Positions 10,306 through 64,000 of a DNA stretch of 64,000 nt are shown here, one piece after another. The translations under genes and the position numbers were made by a program. Numbering within the stretch: position 1 is the first letter of the stretch; every line of letters begins with the position of its first letter. Origin of the DNA: an uncultured Bacteroidota bacterium. Its GTDB lineage: Bacteria > Bacteroidota > Bacteroidia > Bacteroidales > VadinHA17. Under the pieces are notes generated by a model, which was not told where the DNA came from, ran no database searches, and worked only from the letters and a program-made list of their open reading frames with translations. Location: positions 1 to 64,000 of the forward strand of contig CAIMVD010000029.1 of the NCBI GenBank assembly GCA_903844815.1. The letters are read 5' to 3'.

Positions 10306-10316
10306 ATATCTTTATT

Positions 10317-14264: not shown

Positions 14265-14297
14265 CTGGTATTTATGTAATTCAATTTTTATTTACGA

Positions 14298-17981: not shown

Positions 17982-17996
17982 TGACTTCGCCGGGAG

Positions 17997-44133: not shown

Positions 44134-45177
44134 CTATTTCATTGAAACAAAACCTCCATCTCGTTCAAAGGCTTTGTTTTGTCTTAAATGGCTGGCAACA
44201 TTATAACGCTTCATCGCCTTATTATAAACATCGGGCTTCTCTTCCCGGAACTTGGTTACTACATCGGTGCCGTTTTTGGCCCCTGTCATCCTTTTTATTA
44301 ATCCGTTCTCGCCGTAATTATAGCCTATATAGGTAAGCATCTCTTTCTCCTGAGGAGTAAGTGGCACCTTTGTACTGTCAAGCATGTTCTCTATATTCTT
44401 AGCGTAAGATGACATGGCATTAATAGCACCCTTTGTTGACAAGAAATCAGCGGAATACATTTCCTGTCCTCTCTCATTAATGAATGGTGTCCCGGATGGC
44501 ATAAAATAATAATCCAGAGAATCAGGGTGGCTCATTTTACCGGTAAGATCTGGCTTAAGCGAAGTCAGTCCCTTCTTCTTAAACTCGTCATACCTTCTTG
44601 CCCAATCGTCTGTTCCCGTCCATTGTACTGCGCTTATAGGATCAGTATAACCCCCAAAGTCTTTTACTGATATGGATGGATCATCACTCGCAACACCGTG
44701 CATTTCATCTACCAAACCTTCTGCTGATAACAGTCCTCCCAAGACATAAGAATCAACTTTGTTTTCATTGTCCACAAGCATATCCTTAAGGTGTTCATCC
44801 CTATTCATATAAGCATACCTTGTCCATAATGTTGGATCATTGTATTTGCTTTTGAATTCCTGTTCCATTTTCATATTATCGAGCAATGTTTGTCGATCAT
44901 CACTCAGATAATCCCGTGTGCTTTTGTACCGGTTCGGTGCAGGACCAGCATTCCCCGTTGTAGTATTGGCCCCAGGGAAGAACTGTTTTATGAAGCTCTC
45001 GTTAGGCTTTGTGTAGTAACCGTCCTGTTTCAGGTCCTTATACAACTTTGCTAATTTATCAGGGTTGGAGAACTGCTCCTTATACTGACTGAAGCTTTTG
45101 GTATAATGTCCTGCTTCTGTCAGAGCATGCCACAATTTATACTTTGGATCATTGTGTATCTTAGGTGGTCCTGGCAT
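44134..45177 (-). CDS. Phage virion-type protein with YTKS-repeat N-terminus
   Basis: 347 aa. The N-terminus has two related units, 'LWHALTEAGHYTKSFSQYKE' and 'LYKDLKQDGYYTKPNESFIK', each about 35 aa, a repeat I know from large Bacteroidetes phage proteins. The C-terminal third has 'LTPQEKEMLTYIGYNYGENG', which resembles the helical core of phage lysozyme-like folds, but no clear catalytic Glu pair is visible. It is 3 bp after the portal gene and the last of its block. It could be an internal or ejected virion protein. Confidence 0.55.
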   Translation of the reverse strand: MPGPPKIHNDPKYKLWHALTEAGHYTKSFSQYKEQFSNPDKLAKLYKDLKQDGYYTKPNESFIKQFFPGANTTTGNAGPAPNRYKSTRDYLSDDRQTLLDNMKMEQEFKSKYNDPTLWTRYAYMNRDEHLKDMLVDNENKVDSYVLGGLLSAEGLVDEMHGVASDDPSISVKDFGGYTDPISAVQWTGTDDWARRYDEFKKKGLTSLKPDLTGKMSHPDSLDYYFMPSGTPFINERGQEMYSADFLSTKGAINAMSSYAKNIENMLDSTKVPLTPQEKEMLTYIGYNYGENGLIKRMTGAKNGTDVVTKFREEKPDVYNKAMKRYNVASHLRQNKAFERDGGFVSMK

Positions 45178-47225: not shown

Positions 47226-50200
47226 TTATTGTCCGTAAGCCTTTTTGTACTGATTTACCTGATCAAGACACTGTTTCATCAGGACGATAATCTGATCTGC
47301 GCTTGCTACATCGTCCTTAACTTTATCCTTAGAAAGTTCTTTGATATCCGAATCATAAGAGGCAAATATATCCTGAATGGCTAAAGCACGTTGATCACTT
47401 GCAATCTGATTGTACTTATCTGGGGTTCCTCCTTCGCTTGCCTGGCTTTCATAAATCTTTGTCAGGTCGGCATAACCCCCGGCTTCTTCTTTAAGATTGT
47501 AATAATCAGCAATGATATTCCACTTGGCTTCAGGTGTTTTGCGGATGAACTTGTTAACAAAAGGCATGTTCTTGAAATCCACCTCAGTTTCCGGTGATAT
47601 TCCTTGATAGGCAGTTGTAATCATATCAGTTATCATGCCTCCGGTTCCTCCGGAATATCCCTTCATAATATGTTCAACTGCTGACGGGTTTATATCAAGA
47701 CCGACAAAGACCTTTTCCCATTTTCCGTCTTTATAATAGAACTTTGTTTTATTGTCTCCACCTCCAGACCTAAACAGGATATCGGTAAAGAACTTAGCAG
47801 CTGGGCTAACATTAGTCTTGCCAAGACCGGCATTTGCAAGTTTTTTCTCCTGATCCTTAGTAAATGGCTCTTTTACTATTGCATAGCCCATGTAATTTTT
47901 ATTATCAGCAAGTTCCTTCCAGGGCTTAACTATTGTTGGGAATAAAGGTGCAGTACTGAATTCCCCATTTTGATAGAACCCACCTATGTCAATAGGGGTC
48001 ATGCCTGCTGCAAAGTTTGTCATTGCGTTTACCATCCCAGCTTGCAGGGTCATCCGTTTGGACATAACATCGAAGCCGATAGCCCCTAAGCTCTTGAATC
48101 CTCTCCAAAACTGAGGTAATGGAATACTCAAATACTTATCTCCCTTTCCTTTCCCTGTTGCCATTCCAATCAGGTTCGGGATGATAAGAAAGTTCTCCCT
48201 CATATACTCGCTAATATTGTAATAGGATGAATCATCATCATCATCATCTGAAAAAGCGTTCATCATGGCCTCAAAGAACCCAATAGCAACAAATGATCCA
48301 GCGACCCCTGCAAATCGGGCAGGATAATCCTTTGCAAGCTTGAAGTTTTTCTGAAGTGACTGCACTGCAACATTAAAGAAAGCGAACCAAGCATCCCAGG
48401 CCTTACTTCCTTTGCCCTTGCGATTGAAGTTTACAGAGGCTTCTTTTGCTTCGTATGCTGCATCCTTCTTTGTCATTCCTGCTGCCAGGGATGCCCTGTA
48501 AATAGAAAATCTTGTTGCATCCTCAAAAACTCCGTTCCACATCTCTACTCCGTTGCCTACCTTGATAAGAGTATTAAGCATCTTCCCTGGTACTTGTCCA
48601 TCCCTTACCGCTCTTTTGACCTGCTTAATAATCTTCTTCTCAATATCCTCAGTGGTCATGGAATGTGTATAGCCAGTCGCACCCCCGAAGGTGTAAAAGT
48701 CCTCTAAGTCTTGATCTACTTGCGTTGATAGATCATGTTTGTCAAACATTCTCCTTGTTATGGCACCGAAGGATGATTTATACTTACTGTAAACTCCCTT
48801 TTCGCCACCTAACGGATTGCTCCCTGTTTTGATATAATGAGTTATCGGGGCTTCCTGTGCATCACGGAGGAAGTTTGTGAACGGGAATATAACATTCCAT
48901 GAGGTATAAAGAGCCTTAAGAGTGTTGTTTAATGGTCCCAAAGCAGCAATACCGCCATGGATACCCTTTCTCGTATCTCCAAGACCTCCAAATAAAGAAC
49001 GGTAAGTATAATTCTCCTTGTTCAAGGTCTGAGCTGTCTTTATACCTTTTCCTGGGAATACCATAACATAATCACCGCCCTCCCTTCGGACCATCACTTC
49101 ATGTGCATCCGCTCGTTTTGGAGTTCTGACCTTCTCATGCTCTCTGTAAACCTTTGTTTTTACTCGTTTGTCGGCATACAGGGCAGCACTCGGCTTCTCT
49201 ATTGTCGGGACCCATTCGTCTGTACCGTCAGCAAGTGTTTCCCTTACATAGTACAGCTTCTTCAAGGTTGCCAGATCATGAATTTCATTATTATGAAGGT
49301 TCTTGACGATAAGATTAAGCATTGAGTTCTTAACCTCGTTATCAACCTGTTCCGAGAGGGCCTGAGCCTGAACAGTAACCATGTAAGCCAATGGGTTATC
49401 GGCAAGTGATCCCCTTCCTTTGGCATGAATCAGGGACTTATACTTTCCGTCTCCCTGTGTATAGTCCAGATCCTTGGAAGCATCTTCCCTCCAACCCCTA
49501 AGAGGTACGAAGTGTTTGAACTGAGCAAGATAATCCTGCTTCTGCTCATTAGATATCTGATTCCCCGATTCCCAGGTGTCAAGGGTAGCTTCGGAAGCTC
49601 CTCTTATGTTGGTCCAAAGATTATTAATAAGATTCTCGTCAACCATACTTTCAAAGGCATCGACAATCTCCTGTGCAATATCTTCGGGATTCTCATACTT
49701 ATTGTTTACGTCAAAGGGCTTGATCCCGGAGTAGTCTTTATTCTTAATCGTCTCCCAATACGCATTGCGCCTCTTCTGGCTTTCTACATGCATGGTGATA
49801 TCCCAATTTGCAAGATCAGCAGGAAAAAGGTTCTGATTAGCATTCTCATACTTGGCCCTTTCACTCGCCACTCTCATTTCTTCTTTCAGGTTCCATTCTG
49901 CCAATTCCCTTTTTCTGAAGGCAGGATTTCTTTCAAGGCCGTGCTTACTAATAATATACGGAAGGATTGCATCCCTTGGCATGCCTTCCTTTACGATCCA
50001 GCTGATAGTATTAAGGACAGGGTCCATTTTATCCTCCATGTACTTCCTGTAAAGTTCCTCATACCTTCCAAAGGCAAGACTTAAATCCCGGTAAGGCTTA
50101 GAAGCATTGTCCTGCTTTGCGCCTCTCCTGCGGAATTCCTGCTCCATATCACGGAGCGGTAGTGCAATGTCCTGAATGTACTCTCTGAATCCTTTAATAG

Positions 50201-53200
50201 TCTCATTCAGGTTCCTTGCAATCCTTATGGGCTTGTTATACTCTGCATTTGCCTGGTCAAGTACTTCCGATCCTGTCTGAGAGGTCTTGAATTTTGCACC
50301 TTGATTAAGATATTCTTCTGCAAACTCTGCTTTCCCGGCATTTTGCTTGCGAAGATTCTCTTTTGATCTGCGGAGCATGTCATGAATGTCATTGGAGGTA
50401 AAAGATACCTTGAACATTCTGCGAAGCATCTGCCGTATCTTAGCAAGCACTCTCTGATATAAGCTCGGGTTAACATTCTCCTCGGCCATTGATCCAAGAT
50501 ATTCCTCGGCAATAGTTCTCTTATCGCTGGTGTTATAATCTCGTCTTATCAGGTTTTCATCATCAACTGGTATGTCCTTATAGAGTTCATCAAGGAAGTT
50601 GTTGTATTCAGCCTGACCCAGCAAGAAAGGAAGCCCTTTATGAGCAACAACCTCATGCAGGATGGTCTTTGTCACTTCTTCAAGGCCTCTTGCCTCACCT
50701 AGTTCATGAATCCCATCAAGAACGACATAAACGGAATCGGTGGCTTGATCATATACTCCCCCGATGCGCTGGTTCCATATCCCCATTCTCTTGGCCTGTT
50801 TCTTTATGTGTTCAGGAAGATCATTTTTGCTCTTGACAACATTGACCAGGCTATTTAATGAAGTTGCAATTTTCTGAACCTTTTCAGTCATATCAGCATC
50901 CCATTTGGCTCTGTCCTGAGTTCCCAGAACGTCATTCATTAGAGATTCGCCCGATATTTCGCTCTTATACAGGGGTACTCCCTGCCGGTAAGATTCAAAC
51001 ATAGCAGGAGAGATAGGTAAAGACTGTACCGGGATGCCCTTCCCAGGCTTTGAATTTACAATCATGGCCTCCGCTTCGGCAACAGTCCCGACAGTAGCAA
51101 CAACTGCCCCTTCATCATTATAAACATTTACTCCGTCAGAGAATTCTGCATAACCGGTAGCTTGCGAATTTTTATTATCTGGCAGATAAGTTGTTTCAAC
51201 CTTTGTTCCGAATTTCTTCCCGAGTTTATTGGCTATGGATGGTAGTATCTGATCGTAAAAGGCTTTCATGCCTGCTCCACCTACTTTAAGGTCAAGCCCC
51301 TTGAGTGTGCTTAAATGTCCATTCTTTTCAGTGTATTCACCGTTTACAATCTTTTGTGTAAGTTCCTTTCCGATAGTGTTTTCAAGCTCCGCAGGTGTCT
51401 GATAGTTTTGGATAAGGTCTGCCCCTGTTCCGGGCTTTCTGTAAATAACTACGTTATAAGTGCCTGCTCTTGTAGAATTATATGATATAGCGTCAATATG
51501 ATTGATTAAGCTGTACCTTTCTGCTTGTACCTGCCCAGGTGTCCATGCAATAGCGTCAAACCCGTTGTCAATAGCATAGCGGATCATTCGCCTGAACGCA
51601 AGGCCAGCCCATTGGTCTGTGTTCTTGAATGGCATGTTGGGAACTGTGGATATTTTTTGAGTATATGATTCAATCATAGGCATAGCCTCTGCCTGTGTTA
51701 ATTCACCAGATGCAACCCTTCCCATTATTTCCTGAACCTTAACCTTTGCTTGTTCTGTATTTAAAGGAGAAGCAAAGCCTTCCTTCTTCCCTTTCTGGCC
51801 CCAATCGCTCTGAACTTCTTCAAGGAAAAGGATATTTTTGCCGTCTGTTGTGGTCCGGGTGTTAAACCTTGTGTGAGCAACAATATTGGCTTCGTCCCAA
51901 TGACGGGTATGAAATGATTTATTTGAAATTGGTTTTGACCCAAACGTAGACCCATGATAATAAAGTCTCTCAACAACATTTATCCATTCTTCCTCCGTCT
52001 CCTGTTCATAATTACCGGATGGCATTAATTTTGGATTATCTCCGTAACTTGCAATTCTTTTACCATCGTAAAACACCTCTGTTGTCCCTTGCGTCGCAGA
52101 TGATAAATGTCTTACAATTTTAACTAAGTCCCGATTAAACTTATCCTCTACCGGCATTGTCAGCAACAACTCCTTATAGTCCTCACCTCCTGGCATGACC
52201 CAGCTTCCAAATTTTGGACCTTCTGCATCTCCATCTTCCCATTCACGGTTAAGCTCTTTATGCTCTTTAGCTAAGGCAGGAAGATTACCTGGAAGTGTTT
52301 TCCAATCATCTTCATATATCGTCTCTCCATTCTTAACGACTACAAGTTCTTGACCTTCGTACTCTAAATTAAACCCCTTTGCTTCAAATTCGGCTTGTAT
52401 TTCCCCGTTCCGCTGCCATTTCCGCTCCTCGCTGTATGTCCCTTTCTTGACTTCCTTGATTCCGATCTTGTTTTTGCCGATCCATTCTGCTATTTCGAGC
52501 TTGTTTACCTTCATCCCGGCATCAGGAAAACGATCATCCCAGCCCATCCAGTCCAGTTCAGCCTGCTTGGCCCCTCCATTCAGAAGCATGGCTTTCCATT
52601 GCTCGGCAGTAGCCTTCTCCTGCTTGACCTTAATCAGGGCAGTCGAAACTGTCGAAAGATAAAGGTCATTGATAACCCTGAAGTTTGCACCCTTGTCAGG
52701 TCTGTTGATTTCATCGCTCTGGCTCGGATCGTCTTTGGCATAATTGATATAGTCCTCTAAAACTCCTGATTCAGCTGCGGATTCATAAGTACCATAATTA
52801 AAACTTACCAAATCAAGCAGGGTAACATCACTTTTAGCTAACTGTGTTTTTAAAGAATTTGCGGTTTTAGTTGAATTAAATTCTGACGATCTGCCATAGA
52901 TTATGGCTGACACACCTCCAAAGCGTGCTACATAGGCTGAGATATCCCTGGCGATTTCAGGATTCGACAGACTGCTGTATGGCAGGTGAATGTTTGCAGT
53001 AACTTTATTCCCCGTGTCAAGAACAAGAAGCGAAAGCTTATCCCCATCACTTAGTCTCTGTGCTGATAGTACTGAAGCTACGTTAGCAACACTCTTAATC
53101 TCAGGCTGATCTATACTCCTGTTAAATACCTGTTTATTAAACGACAGTGTTGTAAATGCTTTATTATTCCCCGTAATAGGCCTGGTTCCAATGTCAGAAA

Positions 53201-56200
53201 GCCCTCCGCTGAATAAACCGTACTTTCCGCTATCTATGTTTAAAATAACACCATCTTTTATTAAATTATCTCCGAAAGCTTCTTTTGCCCTGTTCAACAT
53301 AGCATAGTCAGACGCAGAGGCATTTAAAGCTCCTGACGGATGATTGTGTACAATATAAACAGCATCAGGATTGAATCTTTTTATCCCATCAGCCAGAGCA
53401 AGATGCCATACCACTGAAGCGTATGGACTTCCTATTGAAATATGCTGAATTATTGGTTTGCCATTTTTAACATATACATAGAAAACATTTTCAACCGCCT
53501 GATCTTCAAGACTGCGAAACAGGTATGCTACATCATCATAGGATTCAATTTTTTCATTACCTGTAAAGGTAAATCCCTTATTGGCCCTGTATTTTCGCTC
53601 AACAGATGAATATTCTCCCTCATTGAGTTTACGAAGGGCTGGATTTGTTAGTCTATCAGTTCTCCCAGCGGTAGTGGGATCTCCCGGTTGTTGTACGTTA
53701 TTGTTTCCCGATGAAGGCTCGTCTCCGAAGGCAAGTTTATAATGTATAACTTCACCTTTGGTGGTTGTATATTTACCTTTTTTTTCTTCAACATTAGTCG
53801 AAGTTGCTTCCGCAATAAATTTCTGCCTATTGTCATCATTGGAAAAGACGAATCCCTTTACAAATCTACTATAATACCCGGCATTCTTTTCAGCTTTTTT
53901 TCTTATTATATCATATTCTGACCAGTCAAGCCGTTTTTTAGGTTTTGCCACAAAAAGGTCTTGTCCTGTCCTAGAATGTTTAATTGTTTCAAGTTTAAAT
54001 TCACTTGCAGAATCTTGACTTATATCTTCATACTGTTTAATCGGTTTCTCTGTTTCAACAGGTTTCTCAGGAATATTTCTCTTAGCGATATTCATGTCTT
54101 CGAGTTCATCAAAGAACTCGGAAACAGTCTTAACATCGTCCATCTCAATATTTCGTGACTGAGGAAGGTTGTCATATTGCGCTGAGAATCTTCTTTGTGC
54201 CTCTGCTTCTATTTGTAGTGGAGTATTCATTGCAAAATAGCGACCAGCAAGGAGAGCTTGCATTTGTTCGGCTTTGATCTCATTAAGGAATTGCGCCTTG
54301 GTCTTTATGACAACTTTGTCAACAATGACTACCCTACACGATACCGCAGTACCGGCTTGTTCAAATGTTATCCTTGGCAGCTTTATGGTTGCAACAAGAT
54401 GAACGTCAGGGTTAAGCAGTTTCCCATTTAAGTCAGTTCCGTTCACGAATGATTCCCATCGCTTATCCATCATGCCCCCATTTGGAATGATGGCAACCAG
54501 GCGACCTCCATCCCTAAGGTGTTTAAAGGCCTTCGCTACATGGTCCATAGCCATTTTACCGCCGGCACCAAACGGAGGATTCATCGCAATCCCATCAAAC
54601 TTATTTACAAGGTCAAGGTCCTCAAAATTCTGATTTATAAGCCTCCTTGTTCCTCCTGCTGCTCTTACATTCAGCCTCGAAAAGAGAGTATATGACGGTT
54701 CTACAACAGTTGTAGAGCCTGTTTCAGGGAACCACATTGCTATCGCCCCATTTCCTGCACTTGGTTCAAGTACCTGATCTCCTTCCCTAAGATCCAGCCA
54801 TTCAGTCATCTTCTGTCCAAGAGGCTCAGGTGTCGGGAAAAAATCGGTCCCTGCTCTCTCGTCCCTTTTTCCCCGTATCCTCTGATTGGTGTTATATACA
54901 AGTACTGCTTTGCGGAAGCGTGATACATTGGACACCTCTCGTTTGTCATATTCCTTTCCTCCTTTCCCCTGGTCAACTGTGGGGTCGTCTTTTTTAGAGT
55001 TGAATAAAACTCCCTCGGCAAACGATCTTATGAGGTCCCTTGCCTGATTTCCGACTGCAAGGTTCTCCGTTGTGCTTAACTTCCGGTTGATGCTATTGCC
55101 GAAGGCTGCAATCTCCATATCAAGACCAAGAATAGGATATTCAAATATGGCATCCGTTTCCTGTCCAATCCTGAAAATACGCCCTTCGATTTGCAGAGCT
55201 GTCGTTGAAGATTGAGGGAGAGACATATTCATAATAACCCTCTGATGCTTCCCGGTGGTATCATGGAGAGAAATTCCTTCTTTGCCAGCTTCTTCCTGGA
55301 CTACCAGTATATCAACGCCTGAATTGTCATCATTGAACTTCCTGATGTTTTCAGATTTGTCTTTCTTAGGAGTATCACCATTGAGAAGTACTACCCTGTC
55401 ACCGAATGCTTTAACAATCTGATCTATCGCTGATGTGTAGTTGAGTGTTTTTTCATATTCTAACAGGTCTGCAAACTTTTCCGCAAAAGCGTCAATTTCC
55501 GCTAATGTCTTTAATGCTGTTTCTTTATGTTCGGGTGTTTCAGTATCATCTTCAATGATCCCGTTACAGTTATTCGTTGTTGCCCTGAGAATGAGTGCAA
55601 ATGGAGGTTCGACATTGGCCTGTTTCCTTCTATGAAAAACAACAACCTTCCTTCCCATTTCAAGATGCTTCCCTATTCGGGGAATAGACATAGAAGCCCT
55701 TAAGGATTCAAATAGCTGAGTTGTGTAGTTATAGTCGAAAAACACATCACGAGCAATAGCCTGAAGCCCCTGAAACTGACCTCCCTCACCATGAGTAAAT
55801 ATTTCGCTGAATCCTTGGTTTATAAGATCGGCATTATCAAGAGCAACAAGGGGGAATTCCCTTGAATAGTCCATGTTGCTTTCAATAGCCCTTCCTGACA
55901 TTACCCCTTGTGCCATAAGCTTCTCAGCGAAAGCAATCTCCTGCATCGCTATTGCTTCTGCACTTGCGTTGCTTCTGGTTTGTAGGTTATTGTTCTTCCA
56001 TTCATAGGCACCGCCAAAGTTGTCAAGGAAGAATCTACCTTCCGGATCAACCCTGCTCTGTCCTCTGCTTTTCGGTTCGTATGTAGTCTCATTCCCCCAA
56101 TCAAACAGGGAACCATTTGCATACCTGAGGTTAAAATGTGTTTTAAATGGTGTTGCCGATAGGAATACTACCTTGGTTTTCTCAAAAGCTTTCTTTGCTC

Positions 56201-59200
56201 GTTCTTCCAGAGCAGGAGTAGCTTCTTTGATCTTTTCTTTAAGAACATCAAGCCTGTCATCGTACTTTTTAATCCTTGTTCTGATTTCGTCAAGCTGCCA
56301 ATCCATCAGATCAAGATTATTGGTGCTTTTTCTCTCTTGTCTTACCAGTTCGTTAAGTTGCTTCTGTTCTACCCAAAGAGGGTGAACGCTAGATATTCTA
56401 TTAAAGGCTTGGCTGGGAGTAATATTGCCATGTAAATAATGAGCTGAGGTTGTAGCTGAACTCTTTCCGTGCTTATCCTCCATGAGCCGGTGCGATTCAT
56501 CGTACATGATCAGGTCAAGATCACGGTTTTTCAGATTGTCATTGGCCCTGAATGAGGCATAAGTGGTTACGCAGATACCCTGGCCTTTATCCTTTGTGTT
56601 TTTTAGGACAGAGACATTAAGCCCAAAGCTGGCTGCTTCCTTTATCCAATCATTTATCTTGGCTTCGCTGGGGACAACGATCAGGATATCTGTTTTGCCC
56701 TGTTTTGCAAATCGCTTGATGATTCCTAGCCCGGAATAGGTCTTACCCGTGCCTGTCCCATTTGTAAACAACATTCCTTTGCCGTTGGCAAGTTCTTTGG
56801 TCTTGTGTTCTTCGCCAAAAAACCGTTTTTCAGCCTTTAGAACATCGTCCTGTTGTTCGGGGAGACATAATGGAAGCGTTTCCCTTACGTTGGCTTCATC
56901 CATCAACTTTACAGGGATGGATTCAGCCTTCTTTTGCTCTATTTTCTTTAGCCTTGTACGTTCTTGAAACGAACCTGATATTCTTTCGCCACCGATCTCA
57001 CCTTCTTCTCCTGTTCCCTCGTCAGTGATATCATGTCCCCCTGTGCCACCAATATCATCTCCTCGACCGTCAAAATCTCCGGCATCGCCGTCCTCAGGCC
57101 AGAAATCCTCGTCTTGCGGATGTACTCCGTTATCGCCTCGTTCTCCAGGAGCAGGACCAAATAGACTCCGATTACCCTTGCCACTTCGTCGTCCGCCTGA
57201 GCCTCCACCTCGTTTCTTATTGCCATTTCCCACTGATCCGCTTCCTCCTCCTCCATCAGGAAGGCCCGTTTGATCTCCGGGTATATCATCGGCACTGTCT
57301 TGGCTATCTCGTTCGCTATCTCCTGGTCTATCAGATACATCTTCTTGAGGTTTAATGGTTTCTAAATCAAATTTACTAACAATATCGTAACTTTCCAAGG
57401 ATAATTCTGCATATTCATGCCAATCTCTTATGCTATTATAGATTATTTTCAGGTAGGGCTTAATGTTTATCCCAAGTTCATTGATCATTCGTTGGGCAAA
57501 TTCAGCAAAAGTCCTTGCACTAGCCTCAATATGATACGCACCTAGTATCATCCCATCCGAAATTATCCCAAGGTCCATGCCCATATTAAGGTTGTTCAGC
57601 CTCTTCCTATTGCGTTCCCTTGCAGCAGCAGCAGCGTCAGTCTTAACCACCTTATTGTCCTGTCCGTATGTGCTTGTTGGTGTAGGAGGAGGTGTAGCTG
57701 GTTCGTTTCTTAATTGCTCCGTGAATGAATCAAGTTCCGCTTCAGTCTTTAATGTGGTAGGGAATGTTAGGTTAGGATTATATGAATAAAATGCAGCTTC
57801 ATAACTGCCATTATAAGTTTTATATCTCACTATATACTCCCATCCCATCGGAGTATGTTTTTTGCTTTTCAGCTTACCATCAAAGTATTCAGGTTTGACA
57901 TCATCCTGAGGCTTGTTTGGAGGTGTAAGATCCTTAGACTGATCCTTAGTGAATATAAGTCTTTCCTTCATTCCCTGTTTAGGGTCCCTCTTCCATGCAG
58001 CTCTATAACCAGCTTCGGATAAGTACTTGGCTATCTTTGCTTCCTGGTCATCAATACCAAATCCCTGAGGATTATTGTCGGCTGATTCATGTAATGCAGC
58101 AAGTGCCTTATTGAATCCCGGCAACTTGGTTAAGTCTTCCGGGGGAGTAAATTCGTCTTTGGCAGGCTGCTTTGCTTCCTTAAAATACCCGTCATTTATG
58201 TTTGTAAAGAGTTCCTTTGCAGAAAGATCAACCTTGTCTGTGGGAATAGTACTATCTGCCTTTTCATACATAGATACTTCAATGCTTCCGTTAGCAAGGG
58301 GCTTAAGTTGTATCTTCTCGTAATATTCGCTACTCCATACCTTTGAAGCAGCTTCTTCGATCTCTTGTATTGGAAGCAGGGACCAACGATCCCAGACCTT
58401 AGGATCAAGCTTATGGTCATATATGATTGTTCCGTGTCCTTCTTCGTCAGGTTCATATCTAAGGAATCCTTCTTTTGGGTGTGTCGCCACGCTAAAGGGA
58501 CGGAGAGCCATTTTATAGCGATATTCCTGCTGGGGTTCTTTCTTATCTCCTTTAATCTGATCGGGTTCAGGATTATCGTACTTTATCTCCTGTTGGTTTC
58601 CCTTTAAGATATCGGTTATCTTCTGTTGAAGGAGTTGGTCATTTCTTTCCATCTCCTGTATGCTCTTTTCTATTGTATCGTTAAAAGGTTTAAGAGCAGC
58701 CTGAAGGTTCTCTTTCTTGGGTTCAAAGAAATCTCCTGCAAACATGTCCTGGGAATCAGCATTATTATCGCCAAAGACCCCATTTCGGCCCTGAAGTTCC
58801 TTTTCTTTCCTATCACGCTTCTTCTGAGTATCAATTATTCGATCTCCAATCTTGTCATTCACTGCAAGGTTTTCTTCAACCAGCTTTTGGATCTGACTAA
58901 GCTTGGATTGATCAATGGTCTTATCAATGGCATTAAGTTTCTCCTCAATCTTTGGAACTTCCTGCTCCTCGATCAACTTTAATGTCCTTAATTCTTTAGC
59001 AGTTGATGCTGAAGGATTCTTTTCAAGCTCTTTTATTCGGGCTTGCCTGGCTTTTTGTTGTGATAATGCAACAAAATAATGCCAAAGGTCCTTTGTCTTT
59101 TCTTGTTCAGTCTTTACAGGGGCAGGTTTCTCAATCTTCTGTTTATTGATTTCGTTGCTTGCCCAATTATTACTTTTATATTCTTCCAGAACATTCAAAG

Positions 59201-62200
59201 GAACTTTTTTACCGTCTTCAATAGCAGCTTTAACATGTTTAGGATGGGCTGCCTTTGCGATAGCAACTGCATCTATGTCTTTACTCCCTAATGAATTAAC
59301 ATATTCAGCAGGTGTCATCTGCCAGGGTTCCTTATCTCCTTCAGCTGGTTCGGCCTGTTCAGCTTCTTTAGCAGCTCTGCGGTCATGCAGTCTTGTTTCG
59401 GCATTGTACTTAGAACCACCTGTGTAGCTATTAACGACATCATCTACATTAAAGGGGAGCTTGTCATTGACTGCATCTTTAATATATCCCAGGAGAGCAT
59501 CGGTTCCCTCCGGTAGTGATGGGAGTGCAGGGAAGTCCTCTTGTAACAGGCTGTACCATTCTCTTAGCTGGCTCTCTTTTTCTCCTTCACCAAATCCATT
59601 TGTAGGAGATGTTAAGTTATCAAGCGTTTTGATATCAATAGGGTATTTCAGACCTACCAACCTCATAATCCACTTGCTATATATGTTATGCCAGGAATAC
59701 AATTCTGCGTGTTCACGAAGGGAGCCTAGTTTTATGGCATCATCAATCTTTTTCTGCATGGGATGATCCTCAGGCAGTTCTGACTTGAATTCTTTAAGAC
59801 TTTTTAGTTTATCAGATATTGTTTGCCAGGCATCATGGGCATTCTCACCTCTTACGTCCTTTATAAGGTCCTCATAATTCTTTAGTACCTTAGGATCAAT
59901 AGAAACTAACTTGTTGGATTGTCCCCAGGCTTCTTTTTGTGGTTTTTCAAGCTCTCCTCCATGTTTGCCAGTATCTCCGGGATTGTTTTCTTCTCCGCTT
60001 TGGCTCTCAGGCACACTAGGTCCATGAACGCTTTGAATAGCTGTGCTTCCTCGTCTGTTTGCTTGTTCATTTTGTAGTTCTGTTTTAAGTTTGAGTAATT
60101 CATCAGCACTTAATCCGAATGGTGTTAAATTACTAACTATCTCTGGATTAAATTCAATATCATTCAATAACTTATCAACGTCAAGACCGTTTTTATTAGT
60201 ATATTCCTGTAAAATAATTTTAACATCAGGGGTATCCATAAAATCATCAAAAACCTTATTCACTTTTGGGAAATTAGCCTCCTGATCGGCCTCTAATTGT
60301 GCTGCTTCCAATTCTTCATCACTTGGCAGCATGTGATCTGGCATACCATCAATATTCTTTGATCTTTCAAGGGCCTTTACCATATCCCATTTGGTGCGAT
60401 ACCTATGTAAGATATCTATGATCGCATTTACCATATCCACGCTCTGACCTCCATCTGCAAACTCAAAGCCGTTTTGTAAACTTTGGTGAAATACGTCAAG
60501 CGAAACACCATCGTCGCTGATAAATTGGAAGAATTGAAGTTTTCGCAGTTCTTCAGATCCCCTTTCATATCCTGCATATCTTATAACATCGTCTGTCTTA
60601 ACTTTCCCCTTTCCAATAAAGAACTGCAATGCTTCTTCTTCAAAGCTATTAGGGGTCTGTTCCATGGCCCTTAGTTCTCTCGCCGTAAACGCTGGTCTTT
60701 TAACCTTTGGCTTCTGTTTAACAGGTTTCTTGGTCCTCGTCCCATCACCGAGCCATTCCTTGAACTGTTCTACCGGCATTTCGGTCATTGCGCCAAGACC
60801 TTTCCAATCTGGGTCGTAGTTTGCATGATACCCTTCCCTTGCTTCTTCCTCTGAATTAAAGCCAAGCATGACCTTATGTTCATCAAACTTACCGGTCTTG
60901 GGATCAACCTGATCAACTACAAACACCTTTGTGGATGCAGGATTGTTGCCTACAAATACATCAACCTGATCCCCGTCCTTGCCTTTTGTCCTTTTGAAAT
61001 AGCCATAGGAGTGATTCATCATTGTACTCCACTTCTTTCCCTTGCTATCCGTCCCGGATCGAATTGTCCCAGGAGCGTTCTCTAAGGTTATAGGCATCCC
61101 TTGTATGGTTACATGGCCTTTTGTGGCATTCCCTGCCTTCTTCTGTGCATCGGAAGGATGACCGTCTACCTGATCATTGGCTGCTGTGATGTCTACCTGT
61201 GCCGCTTGCTCGTCAGTGGCTACTGCACTACCTCCCTTAGGTGCCGGGTACTTCTTCTGATACTCAACTACTTCTGCTCTTAATTTCTTAGCATAAGCCT
61301 GGGCTGCCTGAGACTGACGGGGTGCCATCTCGTCAATTTCTTTAAGATAATCCACCAGTTCTGCACCGATTGCCTCTTTCTCAGTATTATATGGTTTACT
61401 ATACTGTGAAGGACCAGACGCATGGCCTGAATCTCCAATATGTAGGGAACTTCCTGCAAACCAATGACCTGAAGGAGATTCCTTTGTGCTAATGGAATTC
61501 AATATTGCCCATCCCTTTTTATGTGGTGTAAATGCGATTACTTCCTCATGTCTTGACTTCCAATTATTTGCGGGATACTCTGCTGCCTTAGCATTTTCAA
61601 ATCCGTATTTCTGAGCGAGTGCGTCATTATCCTTAGCTCTCTGTGTGGCTTGGTCTGCCCTAGCTTGATTTTCTTTGCTCTCTATAACAGACTTGGTATA
61701 TTCAACCCATTCATTAGGTGTATAATCCTCTTTGTTTTTTAATGTACCATCTGGGTGTTTTGCAAACTTGATTTCTCCGTTATCCTGTCCCGGCTGTTGG
61801 TCTTGTTGATCAAATCCAAACGGAGAACCTGGTACATTGCTAACTTTGGCTTGTTCCGCTTCAAACTCTGCCTTGATCTCTGCATGAATCTGTGCAGCTT
61901 CCTCTGGTCCCACTTCAGGAACGGCTTGGTATATCCTTGCAGGGGATGATTTTGCAGCCTCCTCATAACTCCCTCCGAACGTATCAAGGACAATCTGCTT
62001 TTTCTGCTGATAGGTTGGCTCCTGGCCTAGGTTTGGTGCCTGCCCCTGACCTCCCGATATCTGCCCTTCCGTCTTGGTAGCGGTGGCAGTTTCATCGGTG
62101 GCAGGAGAAGATTGTAACCGGTTATAACCGGTTACAATCGGTAGATTACTCGTATCTTGCGGAATTGACACAATCTTAAACTGATCTGCTTCAAGAGGGT

Positions 62201-64000
62201 CCTGGCTGATCTGCGGAACAAGGGTGAAGTTTGCCCTTGGCCTTTTCTTCTGTAAGGTTTCAAGGACCTTTGTAGCGTCCTGCTCGTTGTCCCAAGTCTG
62301 ATCAATGGCATAATTCCCGTTTTCATCGGGTGTCATGGTATAATCATTCTTCCCGTCAGAAATGATTTTAGCCTGTTGCACCGGCTGTCCTGTGGCTTGA
62401 ACTGGTGCAGTAACAGGGTTAACTGGTTCAATAACGGCGTTAACTGGTTCAGTACTGGACTGAACTGGTGCAGTAGCATTCCCGTTCTCAGTTATAATGT
62501 TCTGATATTCCGACTGTGGTATGCTTGCAATTTCCCCGTTTTCATTTTCAACCATCAGTGTTTCTTCGGGTACTCCTTCTCCCTGAGGCATTACTTCAAG
62601 GACGTTGTAGTTTTGGCCTTTATATGCGATAGGCTGACCGGCAGAGAACTGGGATTGCTCTTGTGCTGCTGCATGATTAATCTGTGCCTCGGTATCGCTA
62701 TACTGCTGCAATTCGTTATTAAGCCACTCCTGATAAGGTACTTCCTTGGTATCTGAGAATTGTGAGGGCTTCATCATCACCGGAGGCACTGCATTAAAGT
62801 CAAAATCATTGGCCTTAAGTTCATCAACGTCATACGCAACATGGAACGCATCGGACTCTGCTCCATCGGCTTCCTTGATTGCATATACTTTGCCGGTGTT
62901 CTTATCCGTAACAAAGGTCATCTTCGGGTCCGGGTCCTCGGCAAGCGGTTTCCTACTGAACTTAAGCTGCTGCCCAATGGAATTTATCTTTTCTTCGGGA
63001 GTAACAGGAACGGGCTTGGCTTCTGGTTGTTGGGTAATAGTATTCTGATTAGCAGGAGCGGTTGTTCCTGGCTGACTACTATTCATCGTTCCCCCTAACA
63101 TTGCAATCATCTTTGATGATCGGTCAAAGTCGGCTATCTCGTCAGGGTCAGCTTCCTGCCCTAAGGCCTTTGTCTCGTCAACATACCCTGCAACACGGCT
63201 GTTCATTTCCTGCCAGTACGCAAGAGGATCGCTATTTAACAGGTCAAGGTCTTTCTGCGCATCCTCCTTTAACATAGGATGCAGGGCTTCTCTGCTTAAA
63301 AGACTGGTTATTTTATCAACCTCGATTTGATGTTCCTGGTCGTAATTGTCTGTTACGTTTGTTACATTGTTACGTCCGGGGACATTGAGCGGTCCAGTAC
63401 TCGTGTTTACAGTCCCCTGGTCCGGTCCTGTCGCTCCTCCTGTCGGTCCTGTTGGTCCTGTCGGTGTTGGTCCTGTCGGTGGGGCTTGTAATTTCTTAGA
63501 TATGGCCCCGATAGCTGCGAATCCCGAACCTGTGGCTCCTCCAATCGCAAATGAATCGAAAAGACCTTCCGTGAAATTATCCTTTGACCACTCTTTCTCT
63601 CCGGTGGCCATGCTGATCAGGTTCCCAGCTGTCGTATTTATAACTTCTGACAAACCTTCATGCACGGGAGCGAACCAGAGGCCAAATGTTTTATATGCTT
63701 TTGCAATGACTTGCCCTACACCCTCCTTAAATATCTCTTTTGCGACAGCAGGTGTGTTATTATTTGCAATCCTATGAATCCATTCACTCATTTCCTTGGT
63801 GCCGAATTCCTCTGTTAGTACTTCAAAGGCACCATATCCCAACGCATTAAGTGTCTTGCCCAAATCACTTACCTGCGGTGAATTCTCGTCAAGCTGGTCA
63901 TATTGCTGTGCAGCAGCAGTAATACCCATTCCTGCCAGTCCTGCCGGCCCTGCCCCTGCTGCGACAAGTGTTGCCGGGAGAGATTCAACGGCTCCTAGCA
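47226..64000 (-). CDS. Giant polyvalent phage protein (helicase-methyltransferase, JAB, zincin, LPD38), 5' end outside window
   Basis: More than 5,567 aa. The frame stays open past the ATG at 63929 to the window edge ('..LPATLVAAGAGPAGLAGMG'), so the start lies outside. Residue numbers below count from that ATG. Order: Ala/Gly-rich start; Pro-Thr-Gly linker (about 150-170); InPase-like domain (about 930-1085, 'DGDQVDVFVGNNPASTKVFV'); long helical parts; SF2 helicase (Walker A 'GTGTGKT' about 2390, 'YDESH' about 2475, motif VI 'QIEGRIFRIGQ' about 2912); adenine methyltransferase ('EPSAGNGAIAMW' about 3054, 'NPPFG' about 3115); RadC/JAB domain ('HNHPSG' about 3528); a 'LEEVQSDWGQ' domain (about 4035); a zincin ('HEVVAH' about 4425); and a C-terminal LPD38-like region (about 4580 on) with a hydrophobic stretch at about 5210. 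Helicase-methylase pairing resembles phage P1 DarB, which enters with the DNA and blocks restriction. Confidence 0.9.
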   Translation of the reverse strand, partial: LGAVESLPATLVAAGAGPAGLAGMGITAAAQQYDQLDENSPQVSDLGKTLNALGYGAFEVLTEEFGTKEMSEWIHRIANNNTPAVAKEIFKEGVGQVIAKAYKTFGLWFAPVHEGLSEVINTTAGNLISMATGEKEWSKDNFTEGLFDSFAIGGATGSGFAAIGAISKKLQAPPTGPTPTGPTGPTGGATGPDQGTVNTSTGPLNVPGRNNVTNVTDNYDQEHQIEVDKITSLLSREALHPMLKEDAQKDLDLLNSDPLAYWQEMNSRVAGYVDETKALGQEADPDEIADFDRSSKMIAMLGGTMNSSQPGTTAPANQNTITQQPEAKPVPVTPEEKINSIGQQLKFSRKPLAEDPDPKMTFVTDKNTGKVYAIKEADGAESDAFHVAYDVDELKANDFDFNAVPPVMMKPSQFSDTKEVPYQEWLNNELQQYSDTEAQINHAAAQEQSQFSAGQPIAYKGQNYNVLEVMPQGEGVPEETLMVENENGEIASIPQSEYQNIITENGNATAPVQSSTEPVNAVIEPVNPVTAPVQATGQPVQQAKIISDGKNDYTMTPDENGNYAIDQTWDNEQDATKVLETLQKKRPRANFTLVPQISQDPLEADQFKIVSIPQDTSNLPIVTGYNRLQSSPATDETATATKTEGQISGGQGQAPNLGQEPTYQQKKQIVLDTFGGSYEEAAKSSPARIYQAVPEVGPEEAAQIHAEIKAEFEAEQAKVSNVPGSPFGFDQQDQQPGQDNGEIKFAKHPDGTLKNKEDYTPNEWVEYTKSVIESKENQARADQATQRAKDNDALAQKYGFENAKAAEYPANNWKSRHEEVIAFTPHKKGWAILNSISTKESPSGHWFAGSSLHIGDSGHASGPSQYSKPYNTEKEAIGAELVDYLKEIDEMAPRQSQAAQAYAKKLRAEVVEYQKKYPAPKGGSAVATDEQAAQVDITAANDQVDGHPSDAQKKAGNATKGHVTIQGMPITLENAPGTIRSGTDSKGKKWSTMMNHSYGYFKRTKGKDGDQVDVFVGNNPASTKVFVVDQVDPKTGKFDEHKVMLGFNSEEEAREGYHANYDPDWKGLGAMTEMPVEQFKEWLGDGTRTKKPVKQKPKVKRPAFTARELRAMEQTPNSFEEEALQFFIGKGKVKTDDVIRYAGYERGSEELRKLQFFQFISDDGVSLDVFHQSLQNGFEFADGGQSVDMVNAIIDILHRYRTKWDMVKALERSKNIDGMPDHMLPSDEELEAAQLEADQEANFPKVNKVFDDFMDTPDVKIILQEYTNKNGLDVDKLLNDIEFNPEIVSNLTPFGLSADELLKLKTELQNEQANRRGSTAIQSVHGPSVPESQSGEENNPGDTGKHGGELEKPQKEAWGQSNKLVSIDPKVLKNYEDLIKDVRGENAHDAWQTISDKLKSLKEFKSELPEDHPMQKKIDDAIKLGSLREHAELYSWHNIYSKWIMRLVGLKYPIDIKTLDNLTSPTNGFGEGEKESQLREWYSLLQEDFPALPSLPEGTDALLGYIKDAVNDKLPFNVDDVVNSYTGGSKYNAETRLHDRRAAKEAEQAEPAEGDKEPWQMTPAEYVNSLGSKDIDAVAIAKAAHPKHVKAAIEDGKKVPLNVLEEYKSNNWASNEINKQKIEKPAPVKTEQEKTKDLWHYFVALSQQKARQARIKELEKNPSASTAKELRTLKLIEEQEVPKIEEKLNAIDKTIDQSKLSQIQKLVEENLAVNDKIGDRIIDTQKKRDRKEKELQGRNGVFGDNNADSQDMFAGDFFEPKKENLQAALKPFNDTIEKSIQEMERNDQLLQQKITDILKGNQQEIKYDNPEPDQIKGDKKEPQQEYRYKMALRPFSVATHPKEGFLRYEPDEEGHGTIIYDHKLDPKVWDRWSLLPIQEIEEAASKVWSSEYYEKIQLKPLANGSIEVSMYEKADSTIPTDKVDLSAKELFTNINDGYFKEAKQPAKDEFTPPEDLTKLPGFNKALAALHESADNNPQGFGIDDQEAKIAKYLSEAGYRAAWKRDPKQGMKERLIFTKDQSKDLTPPNKPQDDVKPEYFDGKLKSKKHTPMGWEYIVRYKTYNGSYEAAFYSYNPNLTFPTTLKTEAELDSFTEQLRNEPATPPPTPTSTYGQDNKVVKTDAAAAARERNRKRLNNLNMGMDLGIISDGMILGAYHIEASARTFAEFAQRMINELGINIKPYLKIIYNSIRDWHEYAELSLESYDIVSKFDLETIKPQEDVSDRPGDSERDSQDSADDIPGDQTGLPDGGGGSGSVGNGNKKRGGGSGGRRSGKGNRSLFGPAPGERGDNGVHPQDEDFWPEDGDAGDFDGRGDDIGGTGGHDITDEGTGEEGEIGGERISGSFQERTRLKKIEQKKAESIPVKLMDEANVRETLPLCLPEQQDDVLKAEKRFFGEEHKTKELANGKGMLFTNGTGTGKTYSGLGIIKRFAKQGKTDILIVVPSEAKINDWIKEAASFGLNVSVLKNTKDKGQGICVTTYASFRANDNLKNRDLDLIMYDESHRLMEDKHGKSSATTSAHYLHGNITPSQAFNRISSVHPLWVEQKQLNELVRQERKSTNNLDLMDWQLDEIRTRIKKYDDRLDVLKEKIKEATPALEERAKKAFEKTKVVFLSATPFKTHFNLRYANGSLFDWGNETTYEPKSRGQSRVDPEGRFFLDNFGGAYEWKNNNLQTRSNASAEAIAMQEIAFAEKLMAQGVMSGRAIESNMDYSREFPLVALDNADLINQGFSEIFTHGEGGQFQGLQAIARDVFFDYNYTTQLFESLRASMSIPRIGKHLEMGRKVVVFHRRKQANVEPPFALILRATTNNCNGIIEDDTETPEHKETALKTLAEIDAFAEKFADLLEYEKTLNYTSAIDQIVKAFGDRVVLLNGDTPKKDKSENIRKFNDDNSGVDILVVQEEAGKEGISLHDTTGKHQRVIMNMSLPQSSTTALQIEGRIFRIGQETDAIFEYPILGLDMEIAAFGNSINRKLSTTENLAVGNQARDLIRSFAEGVLFNSKKDDPTVDQGKGGKEYDKREVSNVSRFRKAVLVYNTNQRIRGKRDERAGTDFFPTPEPLGQKMTEWLDLREGDQVLEPSAGNGAIAMWFPETGSTTVVEPSYTLFSRLNVRAAGGTRRLINQNFEDLDLVNKFDGIAMNPPFGAGGKMAMDHVAKAFKHLRDGGRLVAIIPNGGMMDKRWESFVNGTDLNGKLLNPDVHLVATIKLPRITFEQAGTAVSCRVVIVDKVVIKTKAQFLNEIKAEQMQALLAGRYFAMNTPLQIEAEAQRRFSAQYDNLPQSRNIEMDDVKTVSEFFDELEDMNIAKRNIPEKPVETEKPIKQYEDISQDSASEFKLETIKHSRTGQDLFVAKPKKRLDWSEYDIIRKKAEKNAGYYSRFVKGFVFSNDDNRQKFIAEATSTNVEEKKGKYTTTKGEVIHYKLAFGDEPSSGNNNVQQPGDPTTAGRTDRLTNPALRKLNEGEYSSVERKYRANKGFTFTGNEKIESYDDVAYLFRSLEDQAVENVFYVYVKNGKPIIQHISIGSPYASVVWHLALADGIKRFNPDAVYIVHNHPSGALNASASDYAMLNRAKEAFGDNLIKDGVILNIDSGKYGLFSGGLSDIGTRPITGNNKAFTTLSFNKQVFNRSIDQPEIKSVANVASVLSAQRLSDGDKLSLLVLDTGNKVTANIHLPYSSLSNPEIARDISAYVARFGGVSAIIYGRSSEFNSTKTANSLKTQLAKSDVTLLDLVSFNYGTYESAAESGVLEDYINYAKDDPSQSDEINRPDKGANFRVINDLYLSTVSTALIKVKQEKATAEQWKAMLLNGGAKQAELDWMGWDDRFPDAGMKVNKLEIAEWIGKNKIGIKEVKKGTYSEERKWQRNGEIQAEFEAKGFNLEYEGQELVVVKNGETIYEDDWKTLPGNLPALAKEHKELNREWEDGDAEGPKFGSWVMPGGEDYKELLLTMPVEDKFNRDLVKIVRHLSSATQGTTEVFYDGKRIASYGDNPKLMPSGNYEQETEEEWINVVERLYYHGSTFGSKPISNKSFHTRHWDEANIVAHTRFNTRTTTDGKNILFLEEVQSDWGQKGKKEGFASPLNTEQAKVKVQEIMGRVASGELTQAEAMPMIESYTQKISTVPNMPFKNTDQWAGLAFRRMIRYAIDNGFDAIAWTPGQVQAERYSLINHIDAISYNSTRAGTYNVVIYRKPGTGADLIQNYQTPAELENTIGKELTQKIVNGEYTEKNGHLSTLKGLDLKVGGAGMKAFYDQILPSIANKLGKKFGTKVETTYLPDNKNSQATGYAEFSDGVNVYNDEGAVVATVGTVAEAEAMIVNSKPGKGIPVQSLPISPAMFESYRQGVPLYKSEISGESLMNDVLGTQDRAKWDADMTEKVQKIATSLNSLVNVVKSKNDLPEHIKKQAKRMGIWNQRIGGVYDQATDSVYVVLDGIHELGEARGLEEVTKTILHEVVAHKGLPFLLGQAEYNNFLDELYKDIPVDDENLIRRDYNTSDKRTIAEEYLGSMAEENVNPSLYQRVLAKIRQMLRRMFKVSFTSNDIHDMLRRSKENLRKQNAGKAEFAEEYLNQGAKFKTSQTGSEVLDQANAEYNKPIRIARNLNETIKGFREYIQDIALPLRDMEQEFRRRGAKQDNASKPYRDLSLAFGRYEELYRKYMEDKMDPVLNTISWIVKEGMPRDAILPYIISKHGLERNPAFRKRELAEWNLKEEMRVASERAKYENANQNLFPADLANWDITMHVESQKRRNAYWETIKNKDYSGIKPFDVNNKYENPEDIAQEIVDAFESMVDENLINNLWTNIRGASEATLDTWESGNQISNEQKQDYLAQFKHFVPLRGWREDASKDLDYTQGDGKYKSLIHAKGRGSLADNPLAYMVTVQAQALSEQVDNEVKNSMLNLIVKNLHNNEIHDLATLKKLYYVRETLADGTDEWVPTIEKPSAALYADKRVKTKVYREHEKVRTPKRADAHEVMVRREGGDYVMVFPGKGIKTAQTLNKENYTYRSLFGGLGDTRKGIHGGIAALGPLNNTLKALYTSWNVIFPFTNFLRDAQEAPITHYIKTGSNPLGGEKGVYSKYKSSFGAITRRMFDKHDLSTQVDQDLEDFYTFGGATGYTHSMTTEDIEKKIIKQVKRAVRDGQVPGKMLNTLIKVGNGVEMWNGVFEDATRFSIYRASLAAGMTKKDAAYEAKEASVNFNRKGKGSKAWDAWFAFFNVAVQSLQKNFKLAKDYPARFAGVAGSFVAIGFFEAMMNAFSDDDDDDSSYYNISEYMRENFLIIPNLIGMATGKGKGDKYLSIPLPQFWRGFKSLGAIGFDVMSKRMTLQAGMVNAMTNFAAGMTPIDIGGFYQNGEFSTAPLFPTIVKPWKELADNKNYMGYAIVKEPFTKDQEKKLANAGLGKTNVSPAAKFFTDILFRSGGGDNKTKFYYKDGKWEKVFVGLDINPSAVEHIMKGYSGGTGGMITDMITTAYQGISPETEVDFKNMPFVNKFIRKTPEAKWNIIADYYNLKEEAGGYADLTKIYESQASEGGTPDKYNQIASDQRALAIQDIFASYDSDIKELSKDKVKDDVASADQIIVLMKQCLDQVNQYKKAYGQ
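62111..62138. repeat. Perfect 28-bp palindrome inside the giant gene
   Basis: The half-site ATTGTAACCGGTTA is followed directly by its exact reverse complement, with no spacer. The centre holds two tandem TAACCGGTTA units, each itself palindromic. It codes for 'NLPIVTGYNRLQ' in a linker between domains. A 28-bp gapless palindrome is very unlikely by chance and could bind a dimeric or tetrameric protein. Confidence 0.8.
62391..62475 (-). repeat. Degenerate coding repeats, Pro/Val linker of the giant gene
   Basis: Repeated 'aactggtgcagta' and 'gttaactggttca' blocks code for 'TEPVNAVIEPVNPVTAPVQA', a flexible linker between domains. Variation in copy number would only change linker length. Confidence 0.5.
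63418..63486 (-). repeat. Pro-Thr-Gly coding repeat in the giant gene
   Basis: Tandem 'ggtcctgtcggt' units code for 'PTGPTPTGPTGPTGGATGP', a collagen-like or flexible linker between the N-terminal region and the following domain. Confidence 0.6.

Follow-up and report, generated by a model that had tools for sequence, protein, structure and literature searches.

A giant polyvalent protein gene next to the portal gene of a phage region from an uncultured Bacteroidota bacterium: a likely virion cargo protein with exchangeable domains

Polyvalent proteins, in which unrelated activities are joined in one chain, were described as a class in 2017 (PMC5512222; this and the other papers cited by PMC number were drawn on in excerpt). 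In that survey as excerpted, the InPase and LPD38 domains are listed as phage-only, RadC appears in conjugative elements only, and zincins with the signature HEXXXH are noted. DarB of phage P1 is packaged in the head, to which its 30 N-terminal residues suffice to target a reporter (PMC9024508), and modification of the DNA on entry has been proposed for it (PMC5512222). When virions of phage JC1 were analysed by mass spectrometry, a DarB-like protein of 4,515 amino acids (aa) came second in the score list and was represented by 51 unique peptides (PMC9144972, Table 6), which indicates, by analogy, that a protein of this order of size can be in a virion; phage N4 injects a protein of ∼3,500 aa that contains a zincin and ends in a large helical region (PMC12633501). 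The subject of this study is a minus-strand gene for a giant polyvalent protein (hereafter the giant) in a 64,000-base stretch of DNA (hereafter the window) from an uncultured Bacteroidota bacterium (assembly GCA_903844815.1, contig CAIMVD010000029.1). We consider it likely that the giant is a virion cargo protein of a phage with a P22-type portal, a single chain of 653 kDa that is packed at the portal, ejected with the DNA, built from a chassis with exchangeable cargo, and active in antirestriction.

Within the window, the frame (47226..63998) runs for 5,590 codons without a stop, and its first in-window ATG, at 63929, would give 5,567 residues. It occupies 26% of the window, in agreement with a previous reading made from the sequence only, which had described an uninterrupted frame covering more than a quarter of the window and open at its edge. 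As the window comprises bases 1-64000 of a 75,784-base contig, the frame could be followed past the edge: it remains open to contig base 64889, and its first ATG lies at 64805. With the start found in this way, as the sequence-only reading had proposed, the complete gene extends over contig 47226-64805 (minus strand; 47226..64000 in the window) and encodes 5,859 aa from the ATG, or 5,887 stop to stop, with a computed mass of ∼653 kDa and an isoelectric point of 5.4. A perfect 30-base palindrome is located inside the coding sequence (window 62110-62139; aa 889-899).

The same reading had named an assembly error joining separate genes as what would speak against it, and the source genome, 6.37 Mb in 411 contigs, is fragmented enough for this to be considered. 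Such an artefact is nevertheless extremely improbable. A locus from another assembly (L180, JAAZBI010000099.1) is collinear with aa 2374-5859 at 49% identity (BLAST). In a pairwise codon alignment of the two (3,300 positions, 1,796 identical residues), the differences at codon positions 1, 2 and 3 amounted to 0.351, 0.266 and 0.612, respectively, which, as judged from these sequences, is the pattern of selection on the protein. Single frames of 5,391 and 5,553 aa are also present in the Bacteroides phages BS-TP4 and BKO1-TP3, both deposited as complete genomes. Because of these three lines of comparison, the frame is, on the sequence evidence, one real and complete gene, due neither to chance nor to mis-joining.

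Most of the domains previously assigned to the giant by eye were recovered with profiles (all coordinates refer to the minus strand of the window). The InPase-like domain (aa 1219-1352; 60750..61151) matched PF18823 with an E value of 4.1e-56 and carries DGDQVDVF at aa 1277. The superfamily 2 (SF2) helicase (aa 2639-3315; 54861..56891) was likewise confirmed, by PF04851, PF00270 and PF00271 (ResIII at aa 2673-2778, E 2e-11; Helicase_C at aa 3122-3214, E 8e-7) and by intact motifs, namely GTGTGKT (2683), DESH (2769), SATP (2883) and QIEGRIFRIGQ (3205), the last of which we take to be SNF2-like, an assignment that also draws on weak AAA_34 matches. It is followed by a methyltransferase (core aa 3336-3440, 54486..54800; PF05175 (MTS), E 9.7e-6; whole region aa 3312-3490) with intact TPEPLG (3325), LEPSAGNG (3346) and NPPF (3409) motifs. 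As the meaning of the TP and NPP(Y/F) motifs for methyltransferases has been set out (PMC5512222), the enzyme is probably of the N6-adenine type, which agrees with the adenine methyltransferase named earlier. The RadC/JAB domain (aa 3757-3844; 53274..53537; PF04002, E 4.7e-6; HNHPSG at 3820) and the LPD38-like end (aa 5525-5750; 47556-48233; PF18857, E 2.2e-20) also stood. A DarA_C match at aa 2093-2146 remained under the Pfam cut-off, as did all NCBIfam matches under theirs.

These assignments support, at the level of sequence, that the giant is a phage-type member of the class of Iyer et al. (2017). Domains of unrelated activities (InPase, helicase, methyltransferase, RadC and LPD38) exceed the Pfam cut-offs in one chain, two of them, InPase and LPD38, being listed as phage-only, and the gene lies among late virion genes: a P22-like portal (676 aa; 45181..47211, minus strand; PF16510, E 3.6e-43; phrog_156, E 3.9e-73), an SU10-type major capsid protein (34101..35453, minus strand; PF17236, E 2.5e-30) and a terminase large subunit (36761..38743, plus strand; phrog_2, E 9.6e-24). 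Together with phrog matches and related stretches in viral contigs, this bears out the earlier designation as a polyvalent phage protein. RadC was found in the giant and in 9 of 48 relatives; as its restriction to conjugative elements was an observed distribution in 2017 and no defining trait, its presence widens the class as surveyed, and membership still stands.

The zincin fared less uniformly. The Pfam scan of the giant gave no match in this region (aa 4661-4830; 50316..50825), and the motif is HEXXXH (HEVVAH, aa 4717-4722) and not HEXXH; what upholds the assignment of a zincin-like metallopeptidase is conservation. H58, E59, H63, G65 and E109 are invariant in an alignment of 56 C-termini, and the H, E, H and Glu among them correspond to aa 4717, 4718, 4722 and 4768 of the giant, with Glu 4768 as the probable third zincin ligand. 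HEXXXHxG was present in 77 of 78 C-termini, which had been thinned from 100 by shared 5-mers and included only if they reached the zincin region. HEXXXH plus a downstream Glu, a feature of zincins in polyvalent proteins, is thus found here. The remaining C-terminus (aa 4862-5859; 47229..50222) is mainly helical: an AlphaFold2 model of aa 4660-5859 (from 56 sequences) had a predicted local distance difference test score (pLDDT) of 76.9, and Foldseek returned 72 matches at E ≤ 0.001 among predicted viral proteins, the best being an LPD38 protein of Podoviridae sp. ctsfx1 (E 5e-37, template modelling score 0.57).

Two further regions are shared with other sequences. The domain at aa 4205-4600 (51006..52193), with EVQSDW and GGxGMKAFYD motifs, has no Pfam or NCBIfam match at E ≤ 0.1, and its AlphaFold2 model (pLDDT 87.2) has no fold match in the PDB at E ≤ 0.001. 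A family of unknown function, phrog_23189, matches aa 4223-4280, and at least 551 related stretches occur in viral contigs. An N-terminal region (aa 138-430; in-window part 63516..64000) is common to 9 of 48 relatives by BLAST, among them L016 and BF1-TP2, and contains weakly hydrophobic stretches at aa 264-299 (hydropathy).

The family was assembled by scanning with the C-terminal profile. Genome contigs contained 95 related stretches, from which 79 loci were retained, and viral contigs contained 210, from which 80 were retained. A set of 49 members was then defined. It consists of the giant, the giants of three Bacteroides phages, 13 stretches that had been fetched (L189 was removed from these, as it duplicates BKO1-TP3 in the compared segment) and long loci whose frame has 2,500 aa or more and does not run off the stretch (L107 was dropped as lying on the same contig as L016); similar, non-identical members were retained. 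L142, L079, L049 and some others are possibly frame-broken or late-starting, and L186 and L192 are cut at the C-terminal end by a 20-kb limit. With BLAST from the giant, the InPase was covered in 42 of the 48 relatives, aa 4601-4800 in 38-39 and aa 4801-5800 in 44-48, and the helicase-methyltransferase stretch (aa 2501-3600) in only 1-2. Profiles gave a corresponding picture: InPase in 43 of 49 members, zincin in 40 and the helical C-terminus in all 49 (by construction), against 13 for the methyltransferase, 10 for RadC, 11 for ART, 16 for MuF_C and 9 for ParB; a helicase of the type found here occurred in 2 and one of the Strawberry-notch type in 4. The 11 tested cargo domains formed 28 distinct combinations, counting “none” (6 members) as one. 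When the N-terminal parts of 12 relatives were scanned with Pfam, all 12 had the InPase, and 19 other families occurred in 1-6 relatives each. In L016, whose C-terminus is 51% and InPase 57% identical to those of the giant, LPD5, LPD1 and MuF_C take the place of helicase, methyltransferase and RadC.

The portal gene begins downstream of the giant after a gap of 14 bases. Among the 73 non-redundant loci for which 2.5 kb or more of downstream sequence was available, 61 have a portal gene after the giant on the same strand, 55 of them within 200 bases (105 of 132 loci before thinning). In the PDB, the giant's InPase has a single clear relative, which forms the C-terminal end of the portal of phage Pa193 (9b41, E 9e-33), a segment that is without density in that structure (PMC11042391), and it is this relationship that ties the InPase to the portal. 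As InPase and zincin are widespread, cargo combinations are many and the portal follows in most loci, the family appears to be built as a delivery chassis whose cargo can be exchanged.

Both size and domain combination of the giant had been called extreme. The former does not hold: 6 of the 48 relatives are longer (counted stop to stop). Of 24 records, 20 had an InPase match, and the open frames in these 20 span 3,913-6,935 aa, of which 7 exceed 5,887 (one of them, in G534, on a contig other than the locus leading there). A plasmid-borne polyvalent protein as long as 12,242 aa had already been described in 2017 (PMC5512222). The combination is rare in that only L180 has the identical set of tested domains, yet varied mixtures are usual in the family. 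Related stretches were carried by 3 of 117 genomes of the host family and by 3 of 395 genomes in a sample of the class, the source genome included in both, and 4 plasmid records matched the C-terminus. The contig of L022/L180 (JAAZBI010000099.1) is titled Mollicutes bacterium and carries a relative of a Bacteroidota-type phage protein, possibly through a binning error, which may apply likewise to the titles of L032 (Staphylococcus) and L046 (Bacillota).

Many N-termini of the giants fall into a few short kinds, here designated tagA (MPIY...GKxYxIPdd...), tagB (two repeats of LYdxLxxxGY...DFxxxL) and tagC (the giant, L182, L101, L102 and L016; DPWG in most), which head 10, 18 and 5 of the 49 giants, respectively. 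Profiles were built from 9, 17 and 5 giants, so that matches to those are by construction, and were searched against 16,641 open reading frames (ORFs) of at least 60 aa. At E ≤ 0.01, and besides giants and pieces of giants, three proteins matched: tagB was found in a 347-aa protein of the window (44134..45177, minus strand; E 1.5e-4), encoded 3 bases after the portal gene, and in a 264-aa protein encoded after the portal in L106 (E 4.5e-6), and tagA in a 157-aa ORF directly upstream of the L130 giant (E 2.6e-5), which might represent the start of the L130 giant separated from the rest. Among the sequences fetched for the three Bacteroides phages, no protein other than the giants matched. A looser tagB search, with the two new proteins in the profile, additionally returned weak matches to an ORF of 149 aa in L114 (E 0.006), one of 150 aa in L122 (E 0.02) and one of 272 aa in L038 (E 0.33), none of which was taken as a tag. 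Because of their placement and recurrence, and of the N-terminal targeting of P1 DarB, the modules are candidate packaging tags. If so, their presence on the 347-aa and L106 264-aa proteins would mean that several proteins of one phage type share address labels. Against such sharing, 15-16 of 49 giants lack all three modules, the giant bears tagC and its neighbour tagB, and the L106 giant has none of the three. That Bacteroidota phages of this type possess a modular injection platform, in which tags would direct chains into the head, the InPase and the zincin/LPD38 region would retain the chains at the portal and guide their exit, and the enzyme set could be varied widely, is accordingly a tentative and rather improbable idea, as both the tag counts and the differing modules of a single phage tell against shared labels.

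The reading of the giant as virion cargo draws on its domains, its adjacency to the portal, the synteny across loci, the variation of cargo, the Pa193 InPase and the precedents of P1, JC1 and N4. According to this reading, the N-terminal module would pack the chain into the assembling head, next to the portal, and the chain would leave the head into the next host along with the DNA. The chassis would comprise the N-terminal module, the InPase, and the C-terminal zincin with the ∼1,000-residue helical LPD38 region, and the rest would be exchangeable. The helicase-methyltransferase pair would modify the entering DNA so that host restriction fails, with the RadC/JAB domain as further cargo in this phage; the InPase is predicted to clear pyrophosphate or hydrolyze a nucleotide signal, and the zincin to cut the chain or a partner, in the head or in the host. 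Packaging and ejection are plausible from genomic context and from P1 and the Bcep22-like phage JC1, and cleavage and antirestriction are predicted.

Several observations weigh against this reading. Because the relatives were gathered via the C-terminus, conservation of the helical part is by construction; its model (aa 4660-5859) matched no solved structure in Foldseek at E ≤ 0.001, and kinship to the C2 domain of the N4 virion RNA polymerase was not supported, as hhalign gave E 0.3 for both the comparison and the reversed control. The zincin is missing from 9 of 49 members, 12 of 73 loci have no same-strand portal by profile, the portal of BF1-TP2 lies ∼4 kb off on the other strand, and among 23 loci the gene directly upstream shows recognizable kinship in no more than 8, of which two represent a single contig. 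Sharing of tags rests on two or three proteins, and the order of enzymes is not that of DarB, the helicase (2639-3315) preceding the methyltransferase (3312-3490). Virion data for this phage or near relatives were not found in the literature searched.

Two other roles for the giant have to be weighed. Large proteins such as gp16 of P22 and gp16 of T7 are of the scaffold or ejection-conduit type, and the giant might be mainly structural in the same sense, its enzymatic domains being of little weight. The C-terminal ∼1,000 residues form a mainly helical region, which every one of the 49 members has (by selection), and the four genes upstream of the giant, encoding 405, 147, 140 and 225 aa, resemble by eye the layout of an ejection-protein cluster. 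However, the signature motifs of helicase, methyltransferase, JAB domain and zincin are intact, and the enzyme set varies among relatives as cargo would, which renders a structural role rather improbable. Slightly less so, though still unlikely, is that the giant is made late or in a lysogen and acts inside the producing cell, for instance against other phages or in head assembly, and is not ejected. Captured polyvalent proteins have been suggested to counter superinfection (Iyer et al, 2017; PMC5512222), and the RadC, ART and nuclease domains of the relatives would also fit intracellular conflict. What points to the virion instead is the placement before the portal in most loci, the InPase relative with which the Pa193 portal ends and the virion data for P1 and JC1 (PMC9024508, PMC9144972).

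For the 347-aa protein encoded after the portal, neither a pattern match in viral contigs nor a significant Pfam match was obtained; a lysozyme-like fold suspected by eye is not claimed, as the only indication was a weak Glucosaminidase match (E 0.14) in the L106 protein. No tyrosine integrase was found on the contig, which ends on the phage side, so that a temperate life is not supported. The left ∼23 kb of the contig looks bacterial and holds a bacteriophage exclusion (BREX) operon (window 8257-22905, minus strand) with BrxA (22153-22905), BrxB (21609-22166), BrxC (17997-21608), PglX (14298-17981), PglZ (10317-12563) and BrxL (8257-10305), all on the minus strand; a Schlafen AlbA_2 protein with a Fic-like C-terminus (12564-14264) is encoded between PglX and PglZ. 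Farther left lie a gene for a protein matching the HamC2/HamC (DUF3223) models of a defence system (6205-7071, minus strand) and two adjacent sensor genes (2180-5733, minus strand), one for a PAS-histidine kinase with a receiver (3292-5733) and one for a receiver-kinase (2180-3295).

It is predicted that giant polyvalent proteins act as effectors and enter the host by injection at the very start of an infection; to our knowledge, few have been tested. The literature (PMC5512222) already covers the class, the domains named here and the mode of action predicted for them. As far as the searches show, the complete length, the chassis-and-cargo pattern in one syntenic family and the tag hypothesis are new, as are RadC in phage-type chains and the helicase-first order; among the matches listed by literature searches on BS-TP4 and Bacteroides temperate phages and on polyvalent proteins and the portal, no paper dealt with this family, which is no proof that none is in print. 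With one chassis at one locus and 28 combinations of tested cargo in 49 members, some of them in named Bacteroides phages, the family constitutes a natural experiment, which also offers RadC in phage-type chains, a helicase and a methyltransferase in inverted order and, at aa 4205-4600, a widespread domain that has neither a name nor a solved-fold match. Should the N-terminal modules serve as packaging tags and the C-terminus mediate delivery, the family would give direct experimental access to the rules by which phage heads take up and release proteins.

Among known systems, P1 DarB resembles the giant in combining an adenine methyltransferase and an SF2 helicase in one chain, for which a model of packaged antirestriction exists (PMC5512222, PMC9024508). 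The giant shares the TP and NPP(Y/F) motifs and the SWI2/SNF2-type helicase, the SNF2 part being tentatively assigned from the last helicase motif and the weak AAA_34 matches. Members of the DarB family guard incoming DNA against type I restriction, which the giant may do as well. DarB, likened here by description, differs in its mass of ∼250 kDa and in having the methyltransferase before the helicase. The reverse order is also present in L180, in Klebsiella ZX1 (Pfam) and in Ruegeria 45A6 (collinear BLAST and motifs), and the usual one in four Strawberry-notch relatives. LPD36, the DarB domain before the methyltransferase, is absent from the general Pfam listing of the giant, no search having been aimed at it. 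JC1 gp69 and Bcep22 gp75, which are DarB-like (4,515 aa in JC1), are giant late-region podovirus proteins found in virions (PMC9144972), and phrog_10089, labelled DarB-like, matches aa 710-1389 of the giant; in JC1, likewise likened by description, the portal is gp45 and the giant gp69. The N4 virion RNA polymerase has, like the giant, a zincin followed by ∼1,100 mostly helical residues without known homologues (PMC12633501). The two zincins aligned over 31 columns (hhalign E 3.6e-5, probability 71%; reversed control E 0.11), and in a full-profile comparison the zincin was the sole aligned part (probability 11%, E 0.0027), which weakly suggests kinship of the zincins; N4 differs in having HEXXH instead of HEXXXH and an RNA polymerase as cargo.

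The closest counterparts are L180 and the giants of two Bacteroides phages. L180 carries the same cargo set, collinear over aa 2374-5859, and differs in its length of 4,721 aa (stop to stop) and its tagB N-terminus. BKO1-TP3 and BS-TP4 have a reverse transcriptase, possibly of a diversity-generating retroelement, near a gene of 2,638 and 2,645 aa, respectively (L010:3819-5309 and L007:35987-37477). BS-TP4 gp3 (5,391 aa) is unlike the giant in its ParB domain and in a methyltransferase that precedes a Strawberry-notch helicase, and RadC and the helicase type of the giant were not detected by profiles in either phage. BKO1-TP3 gp55 (5,553 aa), annotated “DarB-like antirestriction”, and BS-TP4 gp3 are nevertheless of the same size class, are encoded between a gene of 371-393 aa and the portal, as the giant is before the portal here, and share with it the InPase, the HEXXXH zincin, a C-terminus 24-25% identical over ∼1,200 columns and, in BS-TP4 gp3, LPD38 by Pfam.

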